Source: Bacteroidota bacterium
GTDB lineage: Bacteria; Bacteroidota; Bacteroidia; Cytophagales; Cyclobacteriaceae
Direction of reading: 5' to 3'
Assembly: GCA_947470895.1 (NCBI GenBank)
Contig: CANIVF010000014.1
Span: forward strand, 1-64,000
DNA length: 64,000 nucleotides
Shown: piece after piece, positions 20,769-37,688 of the stretch
Position numbering within the stretch: position 1 is the first letter of the stretch
How the letters are laid out: every line of letters starts with the position of its first letter
The notes under the pieces: model-generated
Database searches by the model: none
Told to the model about the DNA's origin: nothing
The model's input: only the letters and a program-made list of their open reading frames with translations
Program-made: the position numbers and the translations under genes

Positions 20769-21134
20769 ATGTTAATGAAAATCAGAGCAAACCAGTTCTT
20801 AAAGGTTTTTATCACCTCACTTTTTGTGCTGGGATATCTAGCCCCAGCTTTGCCATTCAATTCTGATAAAGAAGCCAATACTTATCAAACCAAAACTCAA
20901 CTGACCGCTTTTCATCAACAGGGTTTATTGCTAGCCTTAATCCAACCTTTAACTGAAAACGAAGAACGCGAAGACGACAAGAGTTGCACGAGTAGTATTG
21001 AACTACCCGATTATGTTAGTTCGAAGCAATCTACCCTTGTGGTAGATCTGGAGTTGAACGAGATTTTCAAATCGTCCCTTTGCTTCAAGGTGGGTCCATC
21101 GCTCTTCGTGCTTCATCACTCATATTTAATTTAA
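20769..21134 (+). CDS. Small hydrophobic-N-terminus protein, unrecognised family, copy 1 (heads the hyf-like operon)
   Basis: A 121-residue protein I do not recognise from any named family. It has a hydrophobic segment (FITSLFVLGYLAPALPF, about residues 14-30), an acidic stretch (NEEREDDKS) and an end reading PSLFVLHHSYLI. Two relatives lie in this window: 33601-33957, sharing LLAPA, NEERE and an LHRVLLI end, and 33049-33399, with LFAP, EEKEKEEGSD and a KRSILI end. Each copy precedes a different unit of the carbon-uptake region; this one is 117 bp before the hyfB-like gene. It could be a signal-peptide or single-helix protein facing the periplasm. An in-frame ATG two codons in (20775) is an alternative start. 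Confidence 0.65.
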   Translation: MLMKIRANQFLKVFITSLFVLGYLAPALPFNSDKEANTYQTKTQLTAFHQQGLLLALIQPLTENEEREDDKSCTSSIELPDYVSSKQSTLVVDLELNEIFKSSLCFKVGPSLFVLHHSYLI

Positions 21135-21251
21135 CTACAGACATCATAAGCTGATCATAGCGTTGATAAGAGGAGTCACCCGCTTTGTAATCCAGCTTTA
21201 GCTCTACTGACGTAGTCGTAAGAATTTCATTGTTTCAAAAGGACATTTATT

Positions 21252-23228
21252 ATGAATATCATTCTTTTTAAAGTTGCCTTACTTCTTTCCTTCGGTATGT
21301 TTTTCATTCCGAAAAAAATAAAATATAGTTTTGGCCTCTTACTTCACCTCATGTTGATAATGGCCAGCACCAGTTGGGCATTCGCTGTACTTCGCGGCAC
21401 AATACTTACATTGGGGTTAGGTGTAGGCACGTGGAGTGGACCAATTACATTAGTGATTGATCAGCTCAGCGCGTATTTCATGCTGATCATTAACCTGATC
21501 TGCCTGTGCGGAATACTCTATGCAGGCGGCTATTTGCAACCGTACTTGCCTAAGAAGCGATCGGTATTTATATCACTTCACTTGTTTAGCTTTCTGTGGT
21601 TACATGGAGCGATGTTGCTGGTGGTTTCCATGCAGGATGGTATTGCTTTTCTTCTAGCCTGGGAGCTCATGTCCTTGTTCTCCTTCATCCTCGTGATTTT
21701 TGAAGCACAAAAGGAAGCAACTTTAAAAACGGGTATCAACTACTTGCTGCAGATGCATTTGGGCTTTGCGATGATCATGCTTGGGTTTCTGATTGCGGCC
21801 AATCAAACCGGTGATTTAAGTTTTGAAGGCGTAAATAATTTTTTTTCCCAATCCGATAACGTGCCCCTCTTCCTGGTTTTTTTTGCAGGCTTTGGTATAA
21901 AGGCGGGTTTCATTCCCTTTCATTCATGGTTGCCCCGTGCACATCCAGCTGCCCCCTCCCATGTGTCGGGCGTGATGAGTGGTGTCATGATCAAGATGGG
22001 CATTTATGGAATCTTTAGAATCAGTTCCCTCCTACAAAATAATTTGCATACGATTGGTATCATCGTGCTTGCTGCTGGAATCATCTCCGGTTTGCTCGGT
22101 GTGATCATGGCGATTATGCAACACGATTTGAAAAAATTATTGGCCTATCACAGCATTGAAAACATTGGCATTATTGGCATTGGTATTGGCATGGGCATCT
22201 TAGGAAAATCAACGGGATCTAACTACCTGATGATTCTTGGATGGGGTGGTGCACTCTTACACACCTTAAATCATGCACTCTTTAAATCGTTACTCTTCTT
22301 CACTACCGGTAATGTTTATTATGCTGTTCATAAAATAAACATGGACCATCTCGGAGGACTCGCCAAAGATATGCGCTACACATCCATGGCATTCTTAATT
22401 GCAGCACTCGCCATCAGCGGCATTCCTCCGTTCAACGGATTCATTTCAGAATTTCTTATTTACAATGGCATACTCACGCAAATGTCTAGTTCTACTTTTT
22501 CACATTCTATTTTAAGTGTAGTTAGCATTCTTGGTCTTGTCCTGATTGGAGGACTCTGCATTTACTGCTTTACGAAAGCATTTGGTTTGAGCTTTCTTGG
22601 AACACGCAGAGAAGAGCATCCTCACCCGGTGCAAGAAGTTCCCGCTATCATGTTGGTGCCCGCATTCATTCTCATCACATGTATGTTAGCCATTGGATTA
22701 GTCCCTTCCTTCTTTGTGAATGAAGTAGTTGGTGTTCTTCAAAATCTTACCCATACAACAGTAAACATAGACCCCTTATTACTTTCGCTGAACTCTATCA
22801 GTTATGTCAACATGATCTTAATTGTTTTAATTGGTGGTGTTATTGGGTTGCGCGCCTGGCAGCGATCATTCGTAAAAGTAGCAGTTGGCCCTACCTGGGG
22901 ATGTGGTTATACAGCCGGAGATTTCCGTCATCAATACACGCCTACTTCATATGCTGATAGTTTGCGTGAATTAGCAGATCCTTTAATTCAATATCATCGT
23001 GTGTACAAATCATTCGATGAACAAGAAATATTTCCACTACCCAAAACGTTCCACACCGAAAGCAAAGACCTGATCGAAGAGAAGACCATATTAAGTTGGG
23101 TGCATTTGATTGTGAATTACCTGCCGAAAGCAGGTATTGCCCAATCGGGCTTGATTAATCATTATCTGATCTATCCCATGCTTTTCTTACTCCTCATTGG
23201 TTTCCTCATTGTATTAAATATACTCTAA
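21252..23228 (+). CDS. hyfB: HyfB-like proton-translocating membrane subunit (NuoL/antiporter family)
   Basis: A 658-residue, many-helix membrane protein of the family of hydrogenase-4 subunit B and complex I subunit NuoL. Ion-channel residues are kept: the TM5-type Glu in AWELMSLFS, the Lys in GIKAGFIPFHSWLPRAHP, HVSGVMSGVMIKMGIYG, and the Lys and His of HDLKKLLAYHSIEN. Length fits HyfB/HycC. It opens a tight six-gene run to 28523 with gaps of a few bases or overlaps. It is probably one of the ion-pumping arms of a membrane complex. The name is by homology; the complex is not a hydrogenase (see the genes at 26213 and 27762). Confidence 0.88.
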   Translation: MNIILFKVALLLSFGMFFIPKKIKYSFGLLLHLMLIMASTSWAFAVLRGTILTLGLGVGTWSGPITLVIDQLSAYFMLIINLICLCGILYAGGYLQPYLPKKRSVFISLHLFSFLWLHGAMLLVVSMQDGIAFLLAWELMSLFSFILVIFEAQKEATLKTGINYLLQMHLGFAMIMLGFLIAANQTGDLSFEGVNNFFSQSDNVPLFLVFFAGFGIKAGFIPFHSWLPRAHPAAPSHVSGVMSGVMIKMGIYGIFRISSLLQNNLHTIGIIVLAAGIISGLLGVIMAIMQHDLKKLLAYHSIENIGIIGIGIGMGILGKSTGSNYLMILGWGGALLHTLNHALFKSLLFFTTGNVYYAVHKINMDHLGGLAKDMRYTSMAFLIAALAISGIPPFNGFISEFLIYNGILTQMSSSTFSHSILSVVSILGLVLIGGLCIYCFTKAFGLSFLGTRREEHPHPVQEVPAIMLVPAFILITCMLAIGLVPSFFVNEVVGVLQNLTHTTVNIDPLLLSLNSISYVNMILIVLIGGVIGLRAWQRSFVKVAVGPTWGCGYTAGDFRHQYTPTSYADSLRELADPLIQYHRVYKSFDEQEIFPLPKTFHTESKDLIEEKTILSWVHLIVNYLPKAGIAQSGLINHYLIYPMLFLLLIGFLIVLNIL

Positions 23229-23229
23229 T

Positions 23230-24135
23230 ATGCTTTCGATCATTCTCATTGTCGCCTCCGTCATTTTCTTTCCGGGAGTTATTGTAAAGACCAAGGCACT
23301 GTTTAGCGGAAGAAAAGGTCAGGACATTCTTCAACCATGGCACGATATCATTCGTCTTTTGAAAAAAGGAAGTGTGTACAGTACTTCATCAAGTTTTGTT
23401 TTTCAACTAGGTGCTCCCATCTATTTTGCTACGGTTATTGTAGCTGCTCTGTTCATTCCTTTTGAAGAGAACAACTGCATCATTTCCTTTTCGGGTGACT
23501 TTGTCTTCTTTGCGTATCTCCTGGGCCTCGGCCGCTTCATGATTATCATTAGTGCGCTCGATGTGTCCAGCGCGTTTGAAGGAATGGGCGCTAATCGTGA
23601 GGCATTCTACTCGTTGTTGATGGAGCCTGCATTTTTTATCCTGTTGGGTTCGCTGGCGATGTTTACAGGCTACTCGTCTTTTTACGATATCTTTGCAAGC
23701 CTTCATTATAACTCCTATTTCTCATTTATCATCGCGATCATAGCCGCCTATGTTCTGGCAAACATTACACTCGTGGAAACGAGTCGATTGCCGGTAGATG
23801 ATCCTCTCACTCATTTAGAGCTCACTATGGTTCATGAAGTGATGGTGCTCGATCACAGTGGTTTTGATCTGGGAATCATTAAAATTGCCAACAACATCAA
23901 GTTCATTCTATTCAGCATGCTAAGTGCTAACTGCCTGATTCCACAATCGCTGGATTTATGGATGCGCATCGGCATCCTATTCCTTATGCAGGTGCTTTTT
24001 GCAGCAGGAATCGGTTGGTTTGAATCCTTCCGTGCCCGCAACAAAATGATAATGAATGCGCAATACATTCTTTCCATCAACGCAGTAGCCATGATTTTGA
24101 TTTTTGCAGTGATGATCATTAAAAATAAAATATAA
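23230..24135 (+). CDS. hyfC: HyfC-like membrane subunit (NuoH family)
   Basis: A 301-residue membrane protein with about eight helices, starting 1 bp after the previous stop. NuoH/HyfC signatures are present: DVSSAFEGMGANREAF in the loop that faces the peripheral arm, and ETSRLPVDDPLTHLELTM followed by VHEVMVLDHSG, very close to the hydrogenase-4 pattern. In complex I relatives this subunit forms the quinone-side tunnel and the first part of the charge axis. Its acidic and His residues are retained, so the contact to the peripheral subunits is probably still in use. Confidence 0.9.
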   Translation: MLSIILIVASVIFFPGVIVKTKALFSGRKGQDILQPWHDIIRLLKKGSVYSTSSSFVFQLGAPIYFATVIVAALFIPFEENNCIISFSGDFVFFAYLLGLGRFMIIISALDVSSAFEGMGANREAFYSLLMEPAFFILLGSLAMFTGYSSFYDIFASLHYNSYFSFIIAIIAAYVLANITLVETSRLPVDDPLTHLELTMVHEVMVLDHSGFDLGIIKIANNIKFILFSMLSANCLIPQSLDLWMRIGILFLMQVLFAAGIGWFESFRARNKMIMNAQYILSINAVAMILIFAVMIIKNKI

Positions 24136-24138
24136 GTC

Positions 24139-24780
24139 ATGATCAATTTTATCATCGTACTCTTCATCATATCACTCATCTATTTAGCTAAGGTGGAAAT
24201 GGTAAAAAGTTATTTTACCCTCATGGCCCTGCAAGGTGTTTTACTTTTTGGTCTCGCCTATTTCGAATTAAAAGAAATTGACCTGGCTCACCTCCTCTTA
24301 ATTTTGGTGGAAACACTCGTATTCAAAGCCATCTTTGTTCCTATCTTTCTAAAGCGAATTACTAAGGAAAGAGTTCATCGTCATCATCATTTACCAATTA
24401 AAGGATACTATTCAGTGCTGATTAGCACTGCGATTGTCATTGGTTGTTTCATGGTATCGTATGCCATTCATGACGAGCTATCGATTAATGCCGATCACCA
24501 GGTCAAATATTTTACAGCGGCAATTTCGTCCATACTCGTGGGCTTATTCATGGCTATCAATAACCGCGACCTCGTAACGCACTTAATTAGTTACCTGGTG
24601 ATCGAGAATGGAATATTCTTGCTATCCCTTGCTCTGGGTGCCGAGATGCCGATGTTTGTAAACTCCGCGATCCTGCTGGATATTTTTACCAGCGTATTGA
24701 TCATGGGAATCTTCTTTAACAAAATGAAAGATTATTTCCAGAACGCAGACACTCAGCATCTCTCTCAACTTAAAGATTGA
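24139..24780 (+). CDS. hyfE: HyfE-like membrane subunit (contains NuoK-like part)
   Basis: A 213-residue protein with about six to seven hydrophobic helices, 3 bp after the hyfC-like gene. Position, length and the motif LLLILVETLVFKAIFVP match hydrogenase-4 component E, whose C-terminal half resembles NuoK. A Glu in a membrane helix (LVIENGIFLLSLALG) matches the NuoK-type conserved Glu. A basic, His-rich loop (KRITKERVHRHHH) lies on one face. Its stop overlaps the next start by 4 bases, indicating translational coupling. Confidence 0.8.
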   Translation: MINFIIVLFIISLIYLAKVEMVKSYFTLMALQGVLLFGLAYFELKEIDLAHLLLILVETLVFKAIFVPIFLKRITKERVHRHHHLPIKGYYSVLISTAIVIGCFMVSYAIHDELSINADHQVKYFTAAISSILVGLFMAINNRDLVTHLISYLVIENGIFLLSLALGAEMPMFVNSAILLDIFTSVLIMGIFFNKMKDYFQNADTQHLSQLKD

Positions 24781-26210
24781 TCGATATGATATATATTTTC
24801 TTTGCCCTTACTGCCCTCTTTGCTATACTCACCTACTTTATTCGCGTGCGTTTATTTAGTCATCTTATGGTATTCGTGTATATCGCCATGATGATGGCGC
24901 TTGCCGTTGATCTCTGGCCTCAGGCCGGAAAATCACTTAATACTTACTTCTTTAGCGATCGTCTAGGTTTAATTTTTTATCTCATTCTTGTTCTCGTGAG
25001 TTTATTCTCGGCCATACACTATGTAAAATTTGTGATTGACCGTAACGTAAAAATTTCAGATGTAGCGTTGCACAATGCGGGCACGATCTTCTTCACTGGC
25101 TCGATGGTGGGCGTTTTATTTACATCACACTTTGGTATACTCTGGGCCTTTATGGAAGCTACTACATTGGGTGCTTCCATTTTGATTTATCACAATCGCA
25201 ATCAGGATGCGCTCGAAGCCACCTGGAAATATTTGTATGTATGCTCCATTGGTATTGCCATTGCTTTCGCAGGTGTTTTGTTTTTAGGATTTGCAGCTCA
25301 ACAAATAGGGCACATTGATTTTTCATTTACTGCTATCAAAGCTGAAGCAAGCAGTCTTAATACAGTCTGGTTGAAAGGGTGTTTTCTTCTCATCGTGACA
25401 GGCTTCAGCGTAAAGATGGGATTGATTCCCCTATTCAATGTAGACATTGACGCGAAAGATGCATCTCCTTCTCAAGTAGGTGCCAGTCTTTCATCGGTGT
25501 TGATGAATGCCGGCTTCATATCCATATACCGTTTCTATGAAGCCTTTTCTGGCACAAGTATTTTACCATGGATGAATAAACTACTCATGATTGTGGGCCT
25601 GCTTTCGTTATTCTTTGCAGCCGTGTATATACTGCGTGTAAAGAATGTTAAGCGGATGTTTGCCTATTCCAGTATGGAGCATGCCTCCTTAGTCATGATT
25701 GCATTCTCGTGCGGAGGCCTGGGTTACTTTGCCGCCATTCTTCATCTGGTCATGCACTCCTTAGTGAAGTCTAGTCTATTTTTCCAGATGTCCCAAATGC
25801 ATAGAATTTTCGGCAGCAAACTGGATGAAAAAATCGGAAGCTATTTACGTGTCAATCCGCTTGGCGGTTTGGTGATGTTGTTGGGATTTCTTTCCATCAT
25901 TGCCATGCCACCATCCGGTATGCTGATCTCTGAACTGTACATGTTTCAGGCGCTGGTTGCTAAAAATTATTGGTGGGTGGCGTTGCTCGTGTTGCTACTG
26001 GTTTTGATTATCATTTACGGTTTAGCTGTAAAAATGCTCGGTATTATTTTTCTCAAAAAAAATACAGCATCCATCAACATGCAGGGCGCCACACCTTATG
26101 AATCCATCATGCAGTTAATTCTTATTGTGATTGTGTTCTACATCGGATTATTCAGACCAGCCTTTATTGTAGACACCATTCTACTCGCTATTCAAACGTT
26201 ACCCGCTTAG
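24777..26210 (+). CDS. hyfF: HyfF-like membrane subunit (NuoL/M/N family), diverged channel loop
   Basis: A 477-residue membrane protein of the antiporter-like family, close to HyfF in length. The TM5 Glu is kept (AFMEATTLGASIL), as are the KMGLIP lysine and KNVKRMFAYSSMEHAS. The usual loop after that lysine, HTWLPDAHxxAP, is replaced by FNVDIDAKDASPS, so the broken-helix region that normally holds a His and a Trp is remodelled with acidic residues. This may alter ion specificity or a partner-binding surface. It overlaps the preceding gene and is 2 bp from the next. Confidence 0.84.
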   Translation: MIDMIYIFFALTALFAILTYFIRVRLFSHLMVFVYIAMMMALAVDLWPQAGKSLNTYFFSDRLGLIFYLILVLVSLFSAIHYVKFVIDRNVKISDVALHNAGTIFFTGSMVGVLFTSHFGILWAFMEATTLGASILIYHNRNQDALEATWKYLYVCSIGIAIAFAGVLFLGFAAQQIGHIDFSFTAIKAEASSLNTVWLKGCFLLIVTGFSVKMGLIPLFNVDIDAKDASPSQVGASLSSVLMNAGFISIYRFYEAFSGTSILPWMNKLLMIVGLLSLFFAAVYILRVKNVKRMFAYSSMEHASLVMIAFSCGGLGYFAAILHLVMHSLVKSSLFFQMSQMHRIFGSKLDEKIGSYLRVNPLGGLVMLLGFLSIIAMPPSGMLISELYMFQALVAKNYWWVALLVLLLVLIIIYGLAVKMLGIIFLKKNTASINMQGATPYESIMQLILIVIVFYIGLFRPAFIVDTILLAIQTLPA

Positions 26211-26212
26211 TT

Positions 26213-27742
26213 ATGGAAACAACGTCATCACCGATCTCGATCCAAAATCAAAGTACAGTTCCGATCGCTGCCATACCGATACTTTATTATGATGAATTCT
26301 ATGCTTTAATCGTAGCGTGGATGAAGGAACCTCACCTGCATTGTGTAAACTATTATGCGTTTTGGAAAGTTGATGTCTTAAAATTCATATGCTGCCTGGC
26401 CGATGATGTGGCTAACGATATTAAAGTGCTATCGCACGAGATGCCACGAAAAGAAAAGATGCACCTCGCTTCCATCACCCGCGAAGTGTATGCCTTTCAT
26501 ATTTTTGAAAGGGAGATGGCAGAGAATTTTGGAATTGAATTTATTAATAATCCTTGGGTGAAACCCGTGCGCTACGCCTTCAACAGAACCAACCAAAACA
26601 ATGTAATCAACGACTATCCGTTTTATAAAATTGATAGCGAAGAGTTGCATGAAGTTGGTGTTGGCCCGATACATGCAGGAGTGATTGAACCCGGGCACTT
26701 TCGTTTTTTATGCAATGGCGAAACCGTACTGCACCTAGAAATCCAATTAGGCTGGCAACATCGCGGAGTGGAAGATTTATTTATAAAGAAACCAGCGCTG
26801 ATCCAGCAGACCGTACTTTCAGAATCCATTGCCGGTGATACTGCGGTGGGTCATTCCCATGCTTTTATTAATTTGATGGAATCCATGGGAAATGTGACCA
26901 TCGGAAGCCGATTAGCAATTGAACGCACCATCGCCTTAGAGCTAGAACGTATTGCTATGCACGTTGGAGACTTGGGGAATATGAATATCGGCTTGGCATA
27001 TCAATTAGCATCATCTGTATTTGGAACGTTGCGCACTCCGATAATCAACTATACACAAACTTGGTGCGGCAATCGATTTGGCAAAGGGCTCAACCGCGTG
27101 GGCGGAACACATTATCCATTTACGGATGATCTGGCAGAAAAACTGATCGAGCTGCTTGATCGTTTTGAAAAAAGCTTTGCTCCTATGAGCGAGAGGCTGT
27201 TCTCACTTCCTTCAGCACTCATGCGCATGGAGGCCATTGGCAAAGTAACCAAGACCCAGATGAATTTGATTGGTGCCGTGGGCATGGCGGCACGCATGGC
27301 GGGTATCAAACGGGATGTGCGCACTTCTCATCCTTCATCAGCCTACAAAGAATATGCTATCGTAAGCCATACATTAGAAAATGGAGATGTGTGGGCGCGG
27401 GCCTACTTACGAAAACTGGAAATTGAGAATTCAATCGCCTACATACGAAAACTAATTAACGAACTAAAACATATTAACGGGCCTTCCCCCAAACCGCGGA
27501 GTGCCGCTGATTATAAATTAGGTATCAACTCGTTTGGAATTTCTTTGGTAGAAGGATGGCGTGGCGAAATTTGTCATTGCGCTGTTACTGATGGAACCGG
27601 AGAAATCATGCACTATAAAGTAAAAGATCCTTCTGTCCACAACTGGATGGCATTAGCACTTTCACTGCGTGATTTAGAGATCTCAGATTTTCCGATCAAC
27701 AATAAAAGCTACAATCTCTCCTACTGTGGTCATGATCTATAA
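26213..27742 (+). CDS. HyfG/NuoCD-like large subunit lacking all [NiFe] cysteines
   Basis: A 509-residue fusion of a NuoC-like domain (about 25-135, with EVYAFHIFEREMAENFGIEF) and a NuoD/hydrogenase large-subunit domain (about 140-509, with HLEIQLGWQHRGVEDLF). In [NiFe] hydrogenases the metal is held by two CxxC pairs. The first, within ERICGxC, reads ESIAGDT here (Ala207 and Thr210). The second, DPCxxC near the C-terminus, reads NLSYCG (Ser503 and Gly506, with an off-register Cys505). It therefore cannot carry the NiFe centre, resembling the Ehr (energy-converting-hydrogenase-related) complexes. The histidine-rich quinone-site region (AVGHSHAF) persists. It probably docks onto the membrane arm as a structural or conformational subunit. 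Confidence 0.87.
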   Translation: METTSSPISIQNQSTVPIAAIPILYYDEFYALIVAWMKEPHLHCVNYYAFWKVDVLKFICCLADDVANDIKVLSHEMPRKEKMHLASITREVYAFHIFEREMAENFGIEFINNPWVKPVRYAFNRTNQNNVINDYPFYKIDSEELHEVGVGPIHAGVIEPGHFRFLCNGETVLHLEIQLGWQHRGVEDLFIKKPALIQQTVLSESIAGDTAVGHSHAFINLMESMGNVTIGSRLAIERTIALELERIAMHVGDLGNMNIGLAYQLASSVFGTLRTPIINYTQTWCGNRFGKGLNRVGGTHYPFTDDLAEKLIELLDRFEKSFAPMSERLFSLPSALMRMEAIGKVTKTQMNLIGAVGMAARMAGIKRDVRTSHPSSAYKEYAIVSHTLENGDVWARAYLRKLEIENSIAYIRKLINELKHINGPSPKPRSAADYKLGINSFGISLVEGWRGEICHCAVTDGTGEIMHYKVKDPSVHNWMALALSLRDLEISDFPINNKSYNLSYCGHDL

Positions 27743-27761
27743 ATATATAAATTTTTACCCT

Positions 27762-28523
27762 ATGCTGCTTATGGAAGAACTATATATATTAAAACGACTG
27801 GGCAAACAGTTTATTCCCGATGTAACCAAGCCACAACTACCTGGCCCCTTCAAAGGAAGACCCGAAATTTCATTGAAAAAAGTAAATGAAGACACACTAA
27901 TTGCACTTTGTCCAACAGGTGCTATTGTCAAAGCTCCCGTTCGCATCGACATGGGCATGTGTGTGATGTGTGGAGAATGTTCGTTTGCTTTTCCTGATAA
28001 AATTAAATTCACTACCGATTACAAAATCGCCACGAATGTGCGCGAGCGATTGATTATTCAAGAAGGAAACCATACTCCTATCCTGATCGATGAAAATAAA
28101 ATACGCAACGAAATAAGATCCTTGTTTGGCCGTTCACTCAAACTTAGGGAAATATCAGCAGCAGGATCGAATGCCGATGAAGCAGAACTCAACGCGTGTG
28201 GGAATCCAAACTTTGATATGGGTCGCTTTGGAATTGAGTTCTTGGCCTCACCTCGCCATTGCGATGGTATTGTCATCACCGGCCCTATTTCTGAAAATAT
28301 GGCCGAAGCAGTACAGGTATGTTATGATGCCGTGCCCAATCCGAAAATCCTAATCCTCGTGGGAACCGATGCTATCAGTGGTGGCATCTTTACAGGAAGC
28401 GGAGCATTAGACCGAAGCTTTCTGGATAAGTATAGCGTAGATCTGTTCGTTCCAGGCAATCCACCTCATCCACTCACTTTCGTCAATGGTGTGCTGGAAT
28501 TAATTCGGGCCAAGAAAAAATAA
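27762..28523 (+). CDS. Ferredoxin-NuoB fusion subunit without N2-cluster cysteines
   Basis: The frame opens with a GTG at 27726 overlapping the previous gene; ATGs at 27732, 27762 and 27771 also fit, and I chose 27762. Counting from 27726, the N-terminal ferredoxin-like domain has Cys62 (LCPTGAI) and Cys79, Cys82, Cys85 (MCVMCGEC): exactly one [4Fe-4S] set, while the second is gone (Phe89 instead of Cys). The C-terminal domain is NuoB/HycG-like (GRFGIEFLASPRH, DAISGGIF, VPGNPPHP). Aligned to the family, the four N2 ligands are Ser148, Asp151, Asp215 and Asn245. So a HycF-like and a HycG-like protein are fused and largely stripped of clusters. It is the last gene of the operon. Confidence 0.85.
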   Translation: MLLMEELYILKRLGKQFIPDVTKPQLPGPFKGRPEISLKKVNEDTLIALCPTGAIVKAPVRIDMGMCVMCGECSFAFPDKIKFTTDYKIATNVRERLIIQEGNHTPILIDENKIRNEIRSLFGRSLKLREISAAGSNADEAELNACGNPNFDMGRFGIEFLASPRHCDGIVITGPISENMAEAVQVCYDAVPNPKILILVGTDAISGGIFTGSGALDRSFLDKYSVDLFVPGNPPHPLTFVNGVLELIRAKKK

Positions 28524-28551
28524 AACGTGGTCTGTACTACTGCAGACCACG
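28512..28551 (-). terminator. Intrinsic terminator for the dabA-dabB strand
   Basis: A perfect 9-bp stem (CGTGGTCTG at 28526-28534, CAGACCACG at 28543-28551) with an 8-base loop. Read on the minus strand it is followed by a T-rich tract (28525 down to 28515). It sits in the 70-bp gap between the convergent operons; on the plus strand the downstream tract is A-rich, so it should stop mainly minus-strand transcripts. Confidence 0.75.
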
Positions 28552-28593
28552 CAAAAAATATACACAACACAATCTTTCTTACCAATCTCTTCG

Positions 28594-30462: not shown

Positions 30463-30470
30463 AACGTATA

Positions 30471-32966
30471 TTATGAAATTGAGTAGACGGGTAAATTTTC
30501 ATCGTGCGATTCAATCACACTCACTAAATCAGCAGCAACCTCTACGTGTTCTTTAATGGGTTGATAGAGTAAGAACTCACCTTCATTAAATACAGAAAGC
30601 TCTCGTGTTTCTGGATTGATCGCCACGAGATGTACCCAATTGTTGATGAACCATTCATAGGTTTCGGGTTGCTTTTGAATTACTTGTAACACTACATCAG
30701 GAAAATGTTCTACCACAATCAGGAGGCGCACAGGATCATGCACTTCAATCATCTGACTGGGTAAGCCTGGCCTCAAATCACCATCAATTCCATTGGCAAC
30801 ACCAAACAATCCCATTACGTTGTGCGGAAGTTTTGTGCCAGCACCCAACTTCTGATTATCTACGCGAGAGAAAAAATACTCCAGATTAATTCCTCCGCAA
30901 ACCGGGCCAAGCGGCCGAATGATACCTAATAAAAGTTTACCATCCAGATCAGTCGCATAGTCATACGAATTTAAAAAAGATCGTCTGTCCAAAAAGAGAT
31001 GACGCGTAAGATCTCTGCGCCCCACGATACACAATGAGTTTGTGGCGTGGTTGAGTTCCGGGCGTGGCTCAAATAAAGAAACCGACCGTATTCTGATTTT
31101 CTCATGAATTCGTTTTGCGCTCAGATGCGAATTGATGGATTCAAATCTTCTGGATCGCTCCTTCGCATTTAGATCTAATGCCTCTCTGAATACGTGTTCA
31201 GTTTTGGTATGAAGTTCAATATTTTTAGCAGTCAATGCAATCAAATCAAAGAACATCATCTCATCTCGGGTTGTATCATGTAATCCACCCACAAATTGTG
31301 TTTCATCAGGAATCATCAATCCTCGTGACCTTAATATGGCACGCACTTCAAGATGATTGGCCATATGACAAACCACACGTGAGTTAACCGAACCGGCTCG
31401 CCCCGAACAGGCACCACAATCGTACGCTGCAAAGTGCGGATTGTTTACACTACTCGATCCGTGACCGACTACGTAAACCAGATTTGAAAAATTCTTAATC
31501 AACCCAATACTGCGCAACAGGCCCTCCACGCGGTCGGCCATTTCTTCAATGGTAAATCCTACCTGTAAGTCATTCTCGCGATGATCCGGTTTAGTATTCT
31601 CAATGATCAACTTAGAATACTGATCCATGTGTTTGAATGACGATGCCGTGGCCGGCCCCATGGATGGTTTGAAAATATTGATGAACAAGCGAAGTGCTGA
31701 CCAAAAGCCAAGCGTTTGCGTGATCATCCAGCCGCGGAAAAGTGAATGAGAGTGCTTAGTAAAATAGGCGTCTTTCTCATTCTTTTTAGTAACACCGACT
31801 TCTTTGATCAAGAATTTTGGATTAACCGGAGCAGGACAAAGTTTCGTATAAAACTTTCCATGGTCAGGTTGAAAATAAAATTCTACTCCAAAAAAACCGG
31901 GCGTTCCAAATGTTTCGCAACTTGGATCCTCGTGTTCCAGGTATCTGCGTAATGAACATTCTCGATCATCAATGCAGAACATTGCCTGAAAACTGGGCTT
32001 GTCGATGCGCGCTTCTTGCTTAGTCTCTTTTAAACCAGCAAGCACCTCATCATAATAACTCCATTCAAAAGCATCCTGCCAAAGCGAGGTTACTTCATCT
32101 AATTCCGTTACAGGTATTTCGGCAAACAACTCAACAGGGCGATCCTTAATGACCTGCTCGAGTGGTAGCCATTCTTCACCGAAGTGGCTGTCGATCGCGT
32201 CAATTTCAAGTAGTAACTCAAAAATGATCAAATCATGCAGAGTAATTTTTTTATGATCTAATAACGTTTGTGGTTGATCTTCTACCGTAGCTACCATACC
32301 TGACCACCCCTGATGAGAAAACTGCTGATCAAAAACATATTGATCATACAATTTTTCATCGTGGCCCAACAAAATCTTCAATAGCGATTGTATGCCACAA
32401 TGCTCCGATATCAATAAATCTTTCGCACGTTTCGTTTTAAAGAAACTGGTAAAGCTTCCCTTTTCTATTTCTCTGATGGCGGTAAGGAAGCCCTTATTTC
32501 CAATTGGAAAATTCCACATGGAAATTCCCTGATCAAGATAAGAGCATAATATTCTAAAAAGTAACGGATGAACCTGCGAATCTAAATCAAGATGGTAGTG
32601 CTTCTTCCAATTAGATCGTAGTGAACCAATGCGTGGAGAGTCCTTATGATATTGGTTGTTTACAAGTTTATCCTTCCACTCGCCAACCAGATCGGGTCCT
32701 TTGCGCTGGGCAATTACCTTGGCCAGTATCACCTGATTTATTCTGCCCGATTGATAATGGGCGCGATACTCTGCAAGAGAAAGTGAAACACGGTAACCAA
32801 AAATAGCCGAGGCACTATAAATGGCTTTATTGAATTTCAGATTCTGAAATCCGTGTAGCGTGTTATGATGAATAAAGTCTTTGAGCGGAGCCTGAGCCGG
32901 CAAATAGTGCTTAAGCTCGTGAATTAAATGATGTTCATTAAATATAGTTGATGTATTCGTCTTCAT
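30471..32966 (-). CDS. dabA: DabA, zinc carbonic-anhydrase-like subunit of the DAB system (DUF2309/UPF0753)
   Basis: An 831-residue soluble protein. The zinc-site residues of DabA are all present at the right spacing: Cys331 and Asp333 (FCIDDREC), His502 (VVGHGSSS) and Cys517 (YDCGACSG). These match Cys351, Asp353, His524 and Cys539 of the Halothiobacillus protein as I remember it, with the same 15-residue His-Cys distance. Other family motifs are FIHHNTLHGFQNL near the N-terminus and FVGGLHDTTRDE. DabA hydrates CO2 to bicarbonate in the cytoplasm, energised through DabB. It is preceded on the same strand by the small protein at 33049-33399, an 82-bp gap. Confidence 0.93.
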   Translation of the reverse strand: MKTNTSTIFNEHHLIHELKHYLPAQAPLKDFIHHNTLHGFQNLKFNKAIYSASAIFGYRVSLSLAEYRAHYQSGRINQVILAKVIAQRKGPDLVGEWKDKLVNNQYHKDSPRIGSLRSNWKKHYHLDLDSQVHPLLFRILCSYLDQGISMWNFPIGNKGFLTAIREIEKGSFTSFFKTKRAKDLLISEHCGIQSLLKILLGHDEKLYDQYVFDQQFSHQGWSGMVATVEDQPQTLLDHKKITLHDLIIFELLLEIDAIDSHFGEEWLPLEQVIKDRPVELFAEIPVTELDEVTSLWQDAFEWSYYDEVLAGLKETKQEARIDKPSFQAMFCIDDRECSLRRYLEHEDPSCETFGTPGFFGVEFYFQPDHGKFYTKLCPAPVNPKFLIKEVGVTKKNEKDAYFTKHSHSLFRGWMITQTLGFWSALRLFINIFKPSMGPATASSFKHMDQYSKLIIENTKPDHRENDLQVGFTIEEMADRVEGLLRSIGLIKNFSNLVYVVGHGSSSVNNPHFAAYDCGACSGRAGSVNSRVVCHMANHLEVRAILRSRGLMIPDETQFVGGLHDTTRDEMMFFDLIALTAKNIELHTKTEHVFREALDLNAKERSRRFESINSHLSAKRIHEKIRIRSVSLFEPRPELNHATNSLCIVGRRDLTRHLFLDRRSFLNSYDYATDLDGKLLLGIIRPLGPVCGGINLEYFFSRVDNQKLGAGTKLPHNVMGLFGVANGIDGDLRPGLPSQMIEVHDPVRLLIVVEHFPDVVLQVIQKQPETYEWFINNWVHLVAINPETRELSVFNEGEFLLYQPIKEHVEVAADLVSVIESHDENLPVYSIS

Positions 32967-33048
32967 ACAAAGTGTGGCTGCCTGCCACTTTTAATTCAAA
33001 TAAGAAATTGAAAACGCGCAAAGGGCGCTTGGGGGATGAAAACCCTAA

Positions 33049-33399
33049 TCAGATCAGAATAGATCGTTTGGCAATATAAAGCGGAGTGCTTCCAAAGAAG
33101 CCCGAGGTGCGAACCTCTGGAAATTTATTTACTGATTCGGCAGTGAATGAAATGTACTCCGTTAAAACGTAAATCAAAGGCAGTGCAATGACGATGTTAT
33201 CAGAACCTTCTTCCTTTTCCTTTTCTTCAAATGGCATCTGGGCATCTGACTTACCAGGCATATTGGAAGATTTGGCAAGGCCTGTAGTTTTTGAGTAACT
33301 GTCAAGGTAGGTATGGAACGATCTGACTACAATCGGTGCAAACAAAAAGAAAACCAACACAATGCTTGTTAGGGTCAGTATGGGGTTTTTTAAGTTCAT
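33049..33399 (-). CDS. Small hydrophobic-N-terminus protein, copy 2 (heads the dabAB operon)
   Basis: A 116-residue protein with one N-terminal hydrophobic segment (LTLTSIVLVFFLFAPIVV), an acidic patch (FEEKEKEEGSD) and a hydrophobic C-terminal end (STPLYIAKRSILI). The layout, a LxAP motif in the helix and the Leu-Ile ending match the copies at 20769 and 33601, although overall identity is lower than between those two. I cannot name the family. It is upstream of dabA on the same strand. Possible roles are a membrane anchor, an assembly factor or a sensor of the transport complex. Confidence 0.65.
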   Translation of the reverse strand: MNLKNPILTLTSIVLVFFLFAPIVVRSFHTYLDSYSKTTGLAKSSNMPGKSDAQMPFEEKEKEEGSDNIVIALPLIYVLTEYISFTAESVNKFPEVRTSGFFGSTPLYIAKRSILI

Positions 33400-33404
33400 T
33401 AAGC

Positions 33405-33433
33405 CAAAGGTATGAAATTCTTAATGTCTCAAA
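33405..33433 (-). promoter_or_regulatory. Candidate Bacteroidota promoter for the dab operon
   Basis: On the minus strand TTTG (33433-33430) and TACCTTTG (33412-33405) are separated by 17 bases, fitting the Bacteroidota consensus TTG-N17-23-TAnnTTTG. The ATG at 33399 is only 5 bases after the -7 element, so the transcript may be nearly leaderless, or the true start codon lies further in. Confidence 0.45.
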
Positions 33434-33471
33434 AAAATACCGGAGACACGACTTTCAAAGAAATCAACTCT

Positions 33472-33526
33472 CAAAGAGTTCAAATGCCTGCATCAAACGC
33501 TATCAAAATCAGCAGAACAAAGAGTT
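33472..33526. promoter_or_regulatory. Direct repeat CAAAGAGTT x2 in the dab/SulP divergent region
   Basis: The 9-mer CAAAGAGTT occurs at 33472-33480 and 33518-33526, 46 bp start to start. The first copy is part of a small palindrome (AACTCT-CAA-AGAGTT, 33466-33480). Placement between the divergent small genes suggests a regulator site; no matching copy was seen upstream of 20769. Confidence 0.35.
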
Positions 33527-33600
33527 GAGAGCAGAAAAGAATTGGGCTGATAATAAAAAATGAAAAATATATCAGACATTTGCATGAATTACACGTATTC

Positions 33601-33957
33601 ATGCTGTTGAGATATAATAAGATTTTGAGAATTCTTGCCATCATCATCTTCAGTTTTGAACTGCTAGCTCCCGCTGTATTGTTGGGAGTGCCCGAAAGCG
33701 AAACCACTTCTCAGAATACCAATAATCAGATCACCGAGCAAAATAAACCGATTGATCTGATCGCTCACCTGATCTTTGAAGAAGTGAACAATGAAGAGCG
33801 TGAAGGAAAAGATGATTCCCTGATCAGCGTTTGCTTCATTGAAGTCTTCAACGAACTCCAAAAATTTGAACCTATTCAGGTTACCTGGTCGCTTCCTAGA
33901 GACCGGTTTGACATACAGCCTTCTCTCTATACTCTCCACAGGGTTCTTCTTATTTGA
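33601..33957 (+). CDS. Small hydrophobic-N-terminus protein, copy 3 (heads the SulP-porin unit)
   Basis: The frame opens at 33580; I use the ATG at 33601 because it starts right at the basic-hydrophobic signal (MLLRYNKILRILAIIIF). 118 residues: helix with ELLAPAV, an acidic segment NNEEREGKDDS, and an end reading QPSLYTLHRVLLI. Against copy 1 (20769) it shares the LAPA helix, NEERE and PSL(F/Y)xLHxxLI, so these two are true paralogues. No annotated domain is recognised. It lies 136 bp before the SulP gene, separated by two hairpins, and divergent from copy 2 across about 200 bp. Confidence 0.68.
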   Translation: MLLRYNKILRILAIIIFSFELLAPAVLLGVPESETTSQNTNNQITEQNKPIDLIAHLIFEEVNNEEREGKDDSLISVCFIEVFNELQKFEPIQVTWSLPRDRFDIQPSLYTLHRVLLI

Positions 33958-34002
33958 TTTATAATTTTCTGAACAACAGTTGTGGTCTCGTCACATCTGC
34001 TT

Positions 34003-34078
34003 TTGACTTTCCTAATAAAAGTCAACAATTATTGTTTTAAAGGAAATTTATCTACGTGTCGAATTCTATTCTCGACAC
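34003..34078 (+). promoter_or_regulatory. Two leader hairpins before the SulP gene
   Basis: Hairpin 1: TTGACTTT (34003-34010) and AAAGTCAA (34018-34025), 7-base loop. Hairpin 2: GTGTCGA (34056-34062) and TCGACAC (34072-34078), 9-base loop, ending 15 bases before the SulP ATG. The second has no U-run, so it is more likely a leader element or protein site than a terminator. Confidence 0.4.
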
Positions 34079-34093
34079 CCCTAATAATTAATT

Positions 34094-36283
34094 ATGAAGA
34101 CAACAGAAATCCCTAAAGATGGATTAGAAGGATTAAAGCAAAACTGGACCAACGATGCAGTTTCCGGCTTTCTCGTATTTCTTCTCGCATTGCCCTTAAG
34201 CTTGGGTATAGCCAAAGCCAGTGAGTTTCCTCCTGCTATGGGCGTGCTCACCGCCATGATTGGAGGCTTATTTGTAAGTATTTTTGCAGGATCACGTTTA
34301 ACCATAAAAGGTCCTGCTGCAGGACTTATTACCATTTGTGCCGGTGCCGTAACTGAAATGGGTGGTGGCACTGAAGGCTGGAAACTTGCGCTTGGTGTAA
34401 TTGTAGTAGCATCGCTGATTCAAATCGTATTCGGTTGGCTAAAGTTTGGATCACTAAGCGACTTTTTTCCGCATTCCGCTGTTCATGGAATGCTGGCTGC
34501 CATCGGTTTAATTATTTTCTCCAAACAAATTCACGTCCTGCTGGGCATTGATCCGGCCACCTTAAAAGGTAAGGAACCAATTGAATTATTTGAAATGATC
34601 CCTCATTCATTAATGAATGAAGACCCGCGAGTCACTATGGTGGGCATTATCAGTCTCATTATCATTTTTGGTTTACCCTTTATAAAAGGTAAACTTTTTA
34701 AAAAAGTGCCTGCGCCTGTCATTGTTCTTCTGGTCACTATCCCATTAGCCTGGATCATGGATTTCAAACATACCGAGCCAGCGTTTGATATGGTTAAGAT
34801 TGGCGAATTCTGGGGAGAAATAGGGATCAATGCAAACTTTAGCATGATCGGGACTTTCGTTTTTTGGAAGTATGTGATCATGTTCCTGTTTGTGAATAGT
34901 CTTGAGTCGCTCCTTACGGTAAAGGCGATTGATGGACTTGATCCCTGGAAAAGAATTTCCAATCCCAATAAAGACCTGATGGCCGTAGGTGCCGGCAATG
35001 CACTCGCTGGGTTACTCGGTGGCTTACCCATGATCTCAGAAGTTGCCAGAAGTTCTGCAAACATCAACTTTGGAGCACGCACAAGGTGGAGTAACTTCTT
35101 CCATGGCTTCTTTTTGTTAGTAGCTATGTTATTATTTATTCCAGTGATCGAAATGATTCCTAATACGGCACTCGCAGCATTGCTGATTGCCGTGGGTTAT
35201 CGTCTTGCTTCACCCAACGAATTCTTTAAAACGTATAAGATTGGTTCCGAACAATTGGTGATTTTTATAATCACCATCATTGTCACGGTTTCAACTGATC
35301 TGTTAGTCGGTGTAGGCGCAGGTATCCTGATGAAGTTTGTATTTCATATCCTGAATGGTGTTTCCTTTAGAAATCTATTTAAAGCCAAATACGAATTCAG
35401 TCATCAGGGCGATGAGTACTTTATTAAAGTTAAAGAATCAGCAATCTTCTCCAACTTGATTGGTTTTAAGAAAGCATTTAGCACCATCGACCACAGTAAA
35501 AAAATTACAGTCGATTTTTCAGATGCACATCTGCTCGATCACAGCTTTATGGAATACTTACACCACATGGAAGATGAGTGCGCTCATGCAGGTGGTTCGG
35601 TGGTGTCTGTTGGTTTTGATCGCTTCAAACCATTTTCAAATCACCCGTTGGCTGCCCGTAAGTATTCACCCGATAATGTGAATAAGCTGGAAATCAAACT
35701 GAGCCCGCGTCAGTTAGAATTGAGAAAGTTTGCCGAAAACAATGACTGGAGCTTCTTCCCTCAAAAAGTAAAAATTAGTATCAAGTACAAAGACTTTCCC
35801 ATTCAGAATGGAAATAAAATTCCTTATGAAGAAAATACATTAGGAAAATATGTGGAAGCCGGAAAACTTGAATCATCAGACATTACCCTGCAAGAAGGAG
35901 CAAGACACTCGCAGAGTGAAATTCAGATGACTATTTTACAAGTCTCTGAAACAGATCTTTTAATCCCTGATTTTGCATTAGAGCCTGAAGGATTGTTTTC
36001 AAAACTCTTTGAAGGAGTTTTGGGGAAAGATATTGACTTTTATAATCACCCTGTATTTTCCAAGAAGTACTATCTGAGAGGCCAGAATGAAGATCAGATA
36101 CGAAGTTACTTTACGGAGAATATCATTCAGTTTCTTGAAAATCGTGAAGAAATGCATATTGAATGCCACCGTAACAGGCTCATCTTCTATAAAAAACGTG
36201 ACCTGTTAAATCCTTCTGAAATTTTGTATATCGCCAAATTCGCTGAAGAGTTTTTATCAATTCTTCAAAATAAGGAAGCTTAG
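34094..36283 (+). CDS. SulP-family anion (probable bicarbonate) transporter with STAS and extra C-terminal domain
   Basis: A 729-residue transporter. The SulP membrane domain (about 1-430) has DAVSGFLVFLLALPLSLGIA, AGLITICAGAV and GGLPMISEVARSSANINFGA, a layout shared with BicA-type bicarbonate carriers. A STAS domain follows (about 440-520, KITVDFSDAHLLDHSFMEYL). The last 110 or so residues (from about 615, MTILQVSETDLLIPDF) form an extra alpha/beta domain I cannot name. SulP proteins carry sulfate, bicarbonate and other anions. Sequence alone cannot decide, but the DabA/DabB neighbours favour bicarbonate. A terminator follows at 36301, and a porin gene comes next. Confidence 0.87.
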   Translation: MKTTEIPKDGLEGLKQNWTNDAVSGFLVFLLALPLSLGIAKASEFPPAMGVLTAMIGGLFVSIFAGSRLTIKGPAAGLITICAGAVTEMGGGTEGWKLALGVIVVASLIQIVFGWLKFGSLSDFFPHSAVHGMLAAIGLIIFSKQIHVLLGIDPATLKGKEPIELFEMIPHSLMNEDPRVTMVGIISLIIIFGLPFIKGKLFKKVPAPVIVLLVTIPLAWIMDFKHTEPAFDMVKIGEFWGEIGINANFSMIGTFVFWKYVIMFLFVNSLESLLTVKAIDGLDPWKRISNPNKDLMAVGAGNALAGLLGGLPMISEVARSSANINFGARTRWSNFFHGFFLLVAMLLFIPVIEMIPNTALAALLIAVGYRLASPNEFFKTYKIGSEQLVIFIITIIVTVSTDLLVGVGAGILMKFVFHILNGVSFRNLFKAKYEFSHQGDEYFIKVKESAIFSNLIGFKKAFSTIDHSKKITVDFSDAHLLDHSFMEYLHHMEDECAHAGGSVVSVGFDRFKPFSNHPLAARKYSPDNVNKLEIKLSPRQLELRKFAENNDWSFFPQKVKISIKYKDFPIQNGNKIPYEENTLGKYVEAGKLESSDITLQEGARHSQSEIQMTILQVSETDLLIPDFALEPEGLFSKLFEGVLGKDIDFYNHPVFSKKYYLRGQNEDQIRSYFTENIIQFLENREEMHIECHRNRLIFYKKRDLLNPSEILYIAKFAEEFLSILQNKEA

Positions 36284-36300
36284 GCGATTATATGAATGTA

Positions 36301-36331
36301 GGGAGTGAATTAATTTCACTCCCTGTTTTTA
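36301..36331 (+). terminator. Rho-independent terminator after the SulP gene
   Basis: A 9-bp stem (GGGAGTGAA at 36301-36309, TTCACTCCC at 36315-36323) with a 5-base loop, then TGTTTTTATT. It ends 20 bp before the porin start, so the porin probably has its own promoter or depends on read-through. Confidence 0.8.
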
Positions 36332-36353
36332 TTACTCAAACTTATTTAAAGCC

Positions 36354-37688
36354 ATGAAAAGAATTATCGCTTTACTGGTTTTGCTTTGCCTTTACTATGT
36401 TACTCAGGCACAGGATAAACCGAAAGAAATCAATGAGTTAAAATTGAATTTAAATGATACTGGCAGCCGCTATATCAAGGCTACCTTTTTAAATCAGGTT
36501 TGGTTACGCTATGATCAGAGCAACCCCGGCACACGTGTTTTGGGCGAACCGAAAAACGAAACACTTGATATCGGTCTCCGAAGAACACGTTTTCAATTGT
36601 ATGGTCAGATGACCGATCGCGTGTTTTTCTATTTTCAATTCGGCCAAAATAACTTTAACTATTTGTCGCAGAATGCTGGCAATAGAAAATTACAAGCCTT
36701 CTTTCACGATGCATTGGGCGAGTATCGTGTAACCAAAGGAAATGAAAAGCTGATCCTGGGTGGTGGACTTACTATCGCCAATGGCCTCTCACGATTTAGT
36801 CAGCCCAGTGTATCCACGATTATGACTATGGATGTTCCCGTATTTGCACAAGCTACCGTAGATCAAACCGATGAGTTTTCAAGAAAGCTCAGCGCCTATG
36901 CGCGGGGTCAACTGGGCAAATTGGATTATCGTGTAGTACTCAGTGATCCGTTTCCGGTTACCACCAACGGCCAGCCAATTCCTGCCTTGTCAAACAATGC
37001 TACGTTTTCACAGCGTGGTCATCACAAGCAATATCAGGGATTATTTATTTATAATTTCTTCGATACCGAAGCACACACTACACCCTACATGACAGGCACG
37101 TATCTCGGCAAGAAGAAAGTCCTAAACCTGGAAGCAGGATTTATTACACAAAGCAAGGCCACCTGGACGAAAGAAGCTGCTGATACCATTTATCATTCCA
37201 TGAACTTGTGGTCTGCCGCTGTATTTTACGATGCTCCGGTTAATACAGAAAAAGGAACGGCTCTCAATGCCTATGTTGGCTACTACAATTATGATTTCGG
37301 TCCAGGATACCTTCGCTATAACGGTATCATGAATCCTGCATCAACGGTAAGCGGAATATACCCATCTGGCAGCCAGGGTAATGCATTTCCAATGTTTGGC
37401 AGTGGCAAAGTGTGGTACACTCAGGTAGGTTATCTGATGAAGAAAGATTTGCTGGGCGAAGGCAACGGAACGTTAATGCCGTATGCATCGTTGATGAGTG
37501 CCAACTATGATAGGCTGGATAAACAAATGAACGTGATAGACGTTGGTGTTAACTGGCTCCTGAAAGGACACAACAGCAAAATCACACTCGATTATCAGAA
37601 CAGACCCTTCTATTTGCAACAAGGCACTGACTTGATCCGAAATGGAAACAAGAGTCAGGTTGTAATGCAGTATCAGATTTTCTTTTGA
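36354..37688 (+). CDS. Outer-membrane porin
   Basis: A 444-residue beta-barrel protein. The signal peptide ends at TQAQD; the barrel has alternating strands such as RRTRFQLYGQMTDRVFFYFQF and an aromatic C-terminal strand (QVVMQYQIFF). The pattern fits phosphate-selective/OprO-P-like porins of Bacteroidota. Because it follows the SulP transporter, a role in bringing anions, perhaps bicarbonate, across the outer membrane is a reasonable guess. There is no TonB box, so passive diffusion is more likely than energised uptake. Confidence 0.8.
   Translation: MKRIIALLVLLCLYYVTQAQDKPKEINELKLNLNDTGSRYIKATFLNQVWLRYDQSNPGTRVLGEPKNETLDIGLRRTRFQLYGQMTDRVFFYFQFGQNNFNYLSQNAGNRKLQAFFHDALGEYRVTKGNEKLILGGGLTIANGLSRFSQPSVSTIMTMDVPVFAQATVDQTDEFSRKLSAYARGQLGKLDYRVVLSDPFPVTTNGQPIPALSNNATFSQRGHHKQYQGLFIYNFFDTEAHTTPYMTGTYLGKKKVLNLEAGFITQSKATWTKEAADTIYHSMNLWSAAVFYDAPVNTEKGTALNAYVGYYNYDFGPGYLRYNGIMNPASTVSGIYPSGSQGNAFPMFGSGKVWYTQVGYLMKKDLLGEGNGTLMPYASLMSANYDRLDKQMNVIDVGVNWLLKGHNSKITLDYQNRPFYLQQGTDLIRNGNKSQVVMQYQIFF

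Follow-up and report, generated by a model that had tools for sequence, protein, structure and literature searches.

What does a relative of complex I do beside a CO2-hydrating DabAB pair, a SulP transporter and a porin, when its ligands for the NiFe and N2 centers are gone? A preliminary description of the window, by which we mean the whole 64,000-nucleotide stretch analyzed, proposed that a Hyf-like operon without redox chemistry had merged with dabAB into a dedicated machine. Its gene set and family assignments agree with the open reading frames and family matches, and are listed below.

20769-21134, + strand: sp1, 121 aa with a hydrophobic N-terminal segment, upstream of hyfB
21252-23228, + strand: HyfB/HycC/NuoM-like antiporter-like subunit; best solved relatives 6cfw_H and 7z0s_C
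23230-24135, + strand: HyfC/HycD/NuoH-like subunit; family match, solved relative 7z0s_D
24139-24780, + strand: HyfE-like membrane subunit; NF008556 match, under the model cut-off
24777-26210, + strand: HyfF/NuoN-like antiporter-like subunit; family and solved-chain matches
26213-27742, + strand: NuoC+NuoD/HyfG-like (EhrL-like) subunit, without NiFe Cys ligands
27726-28523, + strand: NuoI-NuoB/HyfI-like fusion (HyfIB); S, D, D, N in place of the N2 Cys ligands, but a single ferredoxin-type [4Fe-4S] site retained
28526-28551, no strand: hairpin between the convergent hyf and dab operons, likely a two-way terminator
28594-30462, - strand: DabB, NuoL-like ion-conducting subunit; DabB2 (9rd0_B) among the matches, outscored by NuoL-type chains
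30471-32966, - strand: DabA, CO2 hydratase subunit; PF10070, E 2.6e-220, also 9rd0_A
33049-33399, - strand: sp2, small protein upstream of dabA; relatives adjoin dabA in G395, G049 and G646
33601-33957, + strand: sp3, small protein upstream of sulP; listed ORF start 33580
34094-36283, + strand: SulP transporter with an extended C-terminal part, from the subfamily linked to DabAB and Hyf
36354-37688, + strand: porin-like outer-membrane protein; NCBIfam porin ExtI match under its cut-off

An Ehr-type operon beside dabAB

The six genes of the Hyf-like operon (21252-28523, + strand) are spaced by -17 to +3 bases, and their GC content of 0.42 is not unlike the base composition of the surroundings. 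dabB and dabA run convergently to them, 71 bases away. A hairpin flanked by A and T runs separates the operons (-18 kcal/mol, z -6.6 on the + strand; -16.9, z -4.0 on the - strand), so hyf and dab are probably two transcripts. Among the small proteins, sp1 has no Pfam or NCBIfam match at E<=0.001 and a weak likeness to sp3 (E 1.5e-5), which is 58% identical to its counterpart in a genome of the same genus (G646). The porin identity is likely rather than certain, since the ExtI match (E 2.6e-15) reaches only 56 of the 150 bits of its cut-off and there is no Pfam match at E<=0.001.

The pair on the minus strand qualifies as DabAB (DAC), as DabA (PF10070) keeps the catalytic Cys/Asp/His/Cys motifs (FCID, GHGSS, DCGAC) and is accompanied by a NuoL-like DabB. 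We take the zinc-binding residues to lie within these motifs. In cyanobacteria, NDH-1MS with CupA/ChpY ties a complex-I-like arm to inorganic carbon uptake; the likeness of the window, whose arm may likewise be tied to inorganic carbon uptake, is an idea only, and no Cup/Chp (CupA/CupB hydratase) families were found among the 20 genes scanned (18.6-41.4 kb). Motifs and gene pair are those of DAB2/MpsAB-type DabAB (9rd0; PMC13144422, in part), from which the window differs in that its pair sits between an Ehr complex and a SulP with its porin.

Judged by its sequence features, the Hyf-like operon is a member of the Ehr (energy-converting-hydrogenase-related) family. Its NuoD/HyfG-like large subunit lacks the CxxC pairs for NiFe, with AGDT aligned to the CGIC of HycE, and antiporter-like and NuoH-like membrane subunits are present. 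The missing NiFe Cys ligands set it apart from group 4 [NiFe]-hydrogenases and the absent N2 ligands from respiratory complex I, and no NuoEFG (NADH module) families were matched in the operon's genes. Like hydrogenase-4/formate hydrogenlyase (7z0s), the window has homologues of HyfB, C, E, F, G and I; unlike it, the window has neither NiFe nor N2 ligands, and no formate dehydrogenase or maturation families were found among the operon genes. Mrp Na+/H+ antiporters use NuoL/M/N-like subunits without redox, and Mrp chains 7qru and 6z16 are among the matches of the window HyfB; unlike Mrp, however, the window keeps NuoCD, NuoB, NuoI and NuoH-like parts. The Ehr family was reportedly defined by Marreiros in 2013. 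Its complexes, whose function is described as unknown or only suspected in the sections of PMC10284858 and PMC6349859 that we draw on, share with the window a Hyf-like membrane arm and a NuoCD/NuoB-like arm without NiFe ligands, whereas the window in addition lacks the N2 Cys, is linked to SulP and a porin, and lies beside DabAB. No published description of this Hyf-DabAB-SulP-porin arrangement was found, as judged by titles and abstract openings.

The membrane arm, described earlier as complex-I-like, is intact and retains the ion-path residues of its relatives in alignments: transmembrane Glu, Lys and His columns are kept in the HyfB-like subunit, acidic and Arg residues in the HyfC/NuoH-like subunit, and the membrane arm in general shows conserved Glu, Lys and His columns.

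A SulP subfamily as a statistical partner

The recurrent neighbors of operons without N2 ligands are SulP and the porin, both close by; three other neighbor groups have 3-4 members (window counted) but lie 3-7 genes away. SulP adjoins Hyf in L099, L100, L112, L212, L213, L215 and L217, as well as in L066, an N2-bearing sister, and lies 6 kb from Hyf in the window. Porin homologues occur near SulP in L066, L083, L091, L099, L112, L227 and L228. In a SulP tree, the DabAB-linked (10), Hyf-linked (7) and both-linked (2) proteins form one clade (19/19, support 0.91) that excludes all 23 unlinked SulPs in the comparison. Those next to EIIA-bearing Ehr operons belong elsewhere in the tree and were therefore left out of the support for a shared subfamily.

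This clade also tracks Hyf across 241 genomes of the window's order, occurring in 11 of 17 Hyf genomes vs 52 of 224 others (p=0.0006), and DabA or Hyf is present in 53 of the 63 genomes with a linked-clade SulP vs 23 of 178 without (p=7e-25); the SulP cut-off behind these figures was set by eye, the statistics ignore genome relatedness, and several contigs are short. Counting against the partnership, a linked-clade SulP is absent from 6 of the 17 Hyf genomes. Some SulP appears in the available flanks of only 8 among the 80 named loci, N2-less and N2-bearing ones pooled, and none at E<=1e-20 is present in genome G009, so the Hyf-like complex can do without SulP.

We suggest, with a probability of roughly 0.45, that the operon encodes a non-redox, ion-coupled Ehr complex that serves SulP-type anion uptake in parallel to DabAB. 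Lacking N2 and NiFe ligands, this complex I relative would pass no electrons by the known route and would instead be coupled to an ion gradient, acting much as an antiporter or as a module for ion coupling. It may energize or gate the neighboring SulP as this takes up an anion, most likely bicarbonate, with the porin providing outer-membrane access.

It is possible, if doubtful, that SulP carries sulfate or another anion, that the Ehr complex has nothing to do with inorganic carbon and is an antiporter of the Na+/H+ type, and that DabAB lies close by because the two share a part in pH or ion homeostasis. On the window SulP, the BicA model is outscored by the general SulP and DauA models, with all three under their own cut-offs (BicA 120 bits vs 880); a RuBisCO large subunit was not found in the genome, and DabA is absent from most searched genomes with near-relative operons. 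In favor of the bicarbonate reading, the best-scoring solved chain is 6ki1_A, presumably BicA, closely followed by 5da0_A. What speaks against the alternative is that Hyf-linked SulPs share a clade with the DabAB-linked ones, away from the unlinked proteins.

The N2 pocket and the remaining cluster

In the alignment to MbhJ (6cfw_J), all four Cys of the N2 [4Fe-4S] cluster are replaced in the window, by S, D, D and N, so that the complex is more thoroughly metal-stripped than the preliminary description had stated. An AlphaFold model of the NuoI-NuoB fusion (pLDDT 93.6) has 7z0s_G and 6cfw_J as its best structural matches. With both N2 and NiFe ligands lost from the sequence, electron transfer by the known route should be impossible. 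The proposed loss of redox chemistry nevertheless holds only for these known sites: the remaining [4Fe-4S] site (CP plus CxxCxxC) keeps its Cys throughout the alignment (82/82), and conservation this strict points to a possible role in redox or sensing.

Retention of the N2 ligands in the NuoB-like subunit is the commoner state in this alignment (47/82) and presumably not definitional for Ehr. The 35 proteins without them, the window included, are monophyletic when the N2 columns are masked (support 0.81; 1.00 without L117). Most share an Asp/Asp/Asn replacement (C140 to D in 32, C207 to D in 34, C237 to N in 34), every one is acidic at either position 140 or position 143, and at the thresholds used only three N2 Cys columns of HyfIB separate the two sets.

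These residues and the invariant ferredoxin Cys could be read as a cryptic redox enzyme, in which the Asp/Asp/Asn pocket (S/D/D/N in the window) binds a single metal in place of N2 and is fed by the remaining [4Fe-4S] cluster. We consider this unlikely. In further members, among which L214 and L215 each leave one motif unmatched, the Asn is exchanged for Phe or Tyr (L217, L220) and the second Asp for Glu, His or Asn (L213, L217, L220); thus there is no fixed ligand set, and a strict Asp/Asp/Asn metal site is ruled out. Nor is there an electron donor module among the operon genes.

DabAB and Hyf as proposed parallel partners

A survey of Bacteroidota, the check proposed in the preliminary description, does not support a dedicated Hyf-DabAB machine: Hyf and dabAB coincide no more often than chance predicts, an outcome that the description itself had named as refuting. 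Among 395 genomes, 17 have the Hyf-like protein (E<=2.4e-68), 30 have DabA, and 2 have both, vs 1.3 expected by chance. In the 241 genomes of the order, the counts are 17, 64 (65 with one broken fragment) and 5, again at chance level (Fisher p=0.78). DabA is missing from 33 of the 37 searched genomes with near relatives, a soft absence given that genome completeness is not stated. Neither DabA nor DabB was found in the flanks, many of them short, of the 80 named loci, with DabA of G395 just past a contig end. We therefore reject an obligate machine; the SulP subfamily, rather than DabAB, is the statistical partner of Hyf.

The side-by-side arrangement of Hyf, DabAB, SulP and porin stands as a shared setting, not as a general merger. 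The closeness of Hyf and DabA recurs in the nearest relative (G395), where a single contig has the starts of hyfB and dabA within 2.4 kb of each other in a different gene order, and loosely in a Saprospiraceae MAG (G396), where hyf and DabA are ~17 kb apart. Together with the 71 bases in the window, these distances would suit one physical machine in which the Hyf arm replaces or extends the DabB ion path. Such a machine is improbable on the co-occurrence counts and the missing DabA in relatives, and also because a DabB still accompanies DabA in the window, G395, G396 and G646, the last has a DabAB-SulP-porin block without Hyf, and transcription is likely separate.

The hyf operon is under purifying selection. 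Five Hyf proteins are 67-80% identical to those of the nearest relative at saturated synonymous sites, which make omega ratios incalculable (pS 0.82-0.86 vs pN 0.12-0.23), and DabA, DabB, SulP and the porin are similar (pS 0.79-0.86, pN 0.15-0.20). A decaying relic hitch-hiking beside dabAB, for which the lost metal sites and patchy presence in related genomes might be cited, is rejected on this pS/pN contrast, the intact frames, and the wide, monophyletic N2-less clade with its mostly shared replacement.

Under our preferred reading of a non-redox complex serving SulP, DabAB would be a separate CO2-hydrating pair in the same SulP-porin setting, and the two would be parallel partners of one SulP subfamily. 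The complex has been retained in evolution, probably because the half of it that moves ions aids the import of bicarbonate or a similar anion. More tentatively, a monophyletic complex-I-like clade may have given up electron transfer to become an ion-gradient-driven partner of SulP, a second counterpart of DabAB in the supply of inorganic carbon that arose independently, its N2 pocket having become acidic and perhaps able to bind an ion or conduct protons.

In complex I, electron transfer at N2 drives ion pumping at a distance, within the membrane. A natural family that lacks N2 but keeps the rest lets one ask cleanly what the quinone/NiFe cavity and the membrane arm can do without redox, and the company of SulP, porin and DabAB suggests a first testable function for Ehr complexes in Bacteroidota.

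Gene arrangement and the association with DabAB

The six-gene complex-I-like operon (Hyf) lies in a cluster with the genes for the CO2-hydration pair DabA and DabB, a SulP transporter, a porin-like protein and three small proteins (sp1, sp2 and sp3) located before and between the main genes.

20769-21134: sp1, small protein
21252-28523, + strand: six-gene operon (HyfB, HyfC, HyfE, HyfF, NuoC-NuoD-like, NuoI-NuoB-like)
30462-28594, - strand: dabB, facing the hyf operon
32966-30471, - strand: dabA, facing the hyf operon
33049-33399: sp2, small protein
33601-33957: sp3, small protein
34094-36283, + strand: SulP, past dabB-dabA
36354-37688, + strand: porin-like protein, after SulP

A strong hairpin flanked by A and T runs separates hyf from dabB. 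The window's genome yielded a single DabA match and no match to the RuBisCO large subunit. All three small proteins have N-terminal hydrophobic segments and ...LI C-termini, with weak likeness of sp1 to sp3 and of sp2 to sp3 (E about 1e-5 each), and their relatives adjoin dabA and sulP in three genomes (G049, G395 and G646).

The preliminary description inferred here a Hyf-like arm merged with DabAB into one CO2-hydration machine, an association that is not borne out by co-occurrence across Bacteroidota. Among 395 genomes of the phylum, 17 carry Hyf, 30 DabA and two both, where 1.3 would be expected by chance; in one of these two (G377), Hyf and DabA are on separate contigs. Within 241 genomes of the window's order the corresponding counts are 17, 64 (65 with one fragment included) and 5 (p=0.78). 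DabA is present in 4 of 37 searched genomes with near-relative operons, twice as pieces at contig ends, and in none of the flanks, many of them short, of 80 named loci (the best 80 of 582 confirmed stretches from a genome-collection scan). A DabB/NuoL-like protein, 29% to the window DabB, lies near a Hyf operon at L216:7385; its host, G448, gave no DabA in the genome search of the window's order.

The side-by-side arrangement itself does recur, in another order, in the window's nearest relative (G395/L099). One G395 contig opens with most of hyfB, followed by a small gene, an aminotransferase, a small gene and dabA-dabB, while the L099 contig opens with the remainder of hyfB and continues to SulP, the porin and the window's downstream genes. 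The two contig ends share 71 of 72 bases; thus, the same genes have been kept together in a different order. In the Saprospiraceae genome G396, Hyf and DabA seem to share a contig with about 17 kb between them, a reading based on an equal-sized contig and a matching SulP position. The same-genus genome G646 (L228) has an aminotransferase-dabB-dabA-sp2-sp3-SulP-porin-MarC-RNase H block without hyf, and no Hyf match was found there in the genome search of the order; G049 has a similar block from which the porin is absent. These blocks indicate that Hyf is optionally gained by, or lost from, a DabAB-SulP island.

Metal sites in the window and its relatives

Window residues were placed on ligand columns by HMMER alignment to solved chains. 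The first CxxC of HycE corresponds to AGDT in the NuoCD-like protein, and the cysteines of N2, the [4Fe-4S] site of the NuoB-like subunit, in MbhJ correspond to S, D, D and N in the NuoI-NuoB-like protein, whose structure model (pLDDT 93.6) best matches E. coli FHL (7z0s_G) and MbhJ (6cfw_J). The NuoI-like part retains the CP of its first motif and the CxxCxxC of its second, which we take, from the ferredoxin ligand pattern, to be sufficient for one [4Fe-4S] cluster. The term "metal-stripped" therefore holds for the replaced NiFe and N2 cysteine columns, but not for the complex as a whole.

Clear homologues of the NuoCD-like protein (E<=2.4e-68) occur in 17/395 Bacteroidota genomes, and none of the 17 carries NiFe cysteines in the two alignment regions covered, the first motif and the C-terminus. 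This absence is common to the window operon and the energy-converting-hydrogenase-related (Ehr) complexes; passages of PMC10284858 and PMC6349859 present it as the Ehr hallmark and describe Ehr function as unknown or at most suspected.

N2 cysteines are retained in 15 of the 17 phylum homologues; the window lacks four and G009 three. In an alignment of 82 NuoI-NuoB proteins (the window, 16 from the phylum sample and 65 from the best 80 of 582 stretches), 47 have all four and 35 do not. Asp occupies position 140 in 32 of these 35 proteins, S, A and E accounting for one each; D at position 207 and N at position 237 occur in 34 apiece, and 25 have kept C at position 143. A tree built with the N2 columns masked groups all 35 in one clade (support 0.81, rising to 1.00 when L117 is excluded) whose sister, G101, has N2, and at the column-test thresholds used three N2 cysteines are the sole HyfIB columns dividing the two groups. 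The D/D/N pattern is looser in nine additional N2-less proteins of the order to which the window belongs (L223 duplicates L117 and is not counted): the second Asp can give way to E, H or N, and F, Y or N can fill the final position. A fixed metal site is therefore not proposed. Near the window's type, two hyfB genes stand in tandem or nearly so in L106, L107, L109, L111-L116, L120, L121 and L133.

SulP as a probable common partner

SulP adjoins Hyf in L099, L100, L112, G436, G583, G614, G486 and the N2-bearing sister G101; the window SulP lies on the opposite side of dabBA from Hyf. Any SulP occurs in the available flanks of 8 of the best 80 of 582 loci, N2-less and N2-bearing pooled. In a tree of 50 SulPs (47 from 23 genomes mostly bearing such loci, three from other loci), all 19 with a link, 10 to DabAB, 7 to Hyf and 2 to both, group in one clade (support 0.91) in which DabAB- and Hyf-linked members are intermixed. 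The SulPs branching outside it comprise 23 with no link known and 8 from beside Ehr operons of the EIIA type, one of the unlinked ones (L262, G486) being the nearest branch.

A survey of the 241 genomes at E<=1e-149, a cut-off set by eye, gave 67 SulP rows in 63 genomes, of which 30 lie <=15 kb from DabA, 4 from Hyf and 1 from both; the remaining 32 have no DabA or Hyf within that distance, and 10 of these come from genomes with neither gene. At this cut-off SulP is present in 11/17 Hyf genomes versus 52/224 others (p=0.0006, with genomes treated as independent, which flatters p-values) and missing from 6/17.

The window SulP (729 aa) has a long C-terminal region past the matched transporter part, and its linked relatives fall into two size classes, 728-750 aa and 530-590 aa. 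N2-bearing Ehr operons in L071, L072, L073, L075, L076, L157, L166, L173 and L175 are accompanied by an HTH-PTS_EIIA_2 protein together with a SulP from a different subfamily; the EIIA assignment comes from Pfam in L071 and from a home-made profile or from place and length in the others. At L080:6939-9140, SulP, STAS and EIIA are fused into one protein within such an operon. Outside the window, a second SulP in the same genome (contig C20:39355-41437) directly adjoins a beta-carbonic anhydrase match.

Selection and a proposed non-redox role

L099, a Cyclobacteriaceae MAG, is the window's closest relative; five Hyf proteins compared between the two are 67-80% identical with saturated synonymous differences (pS 0.82-0.86; HyfB, split between contigs, stands outside this comparison), and DabA, DabB, SulP and the porin are similar (70-76%, pS 0.79-0.86). 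The Glu, Lys and His positions of the membrane arm match solved HycC, MbhH, HycD and NuoN-like chains in alignment and are conserved across the clade. The ion-moving arm is thus intact and under selection. With N2 and a terminal site missing, the complex should be incapable of carrying electrons along the known route.

The lost redox sites, the intact and selected ion arm and the shared SulP subfamily are most simply explained if the complex is a non-redox, ion-coupled device backing SulP-type uptake of an anion, probably bicarbonate, in parallel with DabAB. Its weak points are the N2-less operons without SulP, including that of G009 (no SulP in the genome at E<=1e-20), the unexplained strict retention of one FeS site, and a SulP substrate that is only probably bicarbonate. 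Passages of PMC13144422 on the DAB2 structure liken DabA2 to carbonic anhydrases and DabB2 to proton-conducting subunits of complex I, and propose coupling to the protonmotive force. By analogy with DAB2 as so described, a non-redox use of complex-I-type subunits for inorganic carbon is therefore credible.
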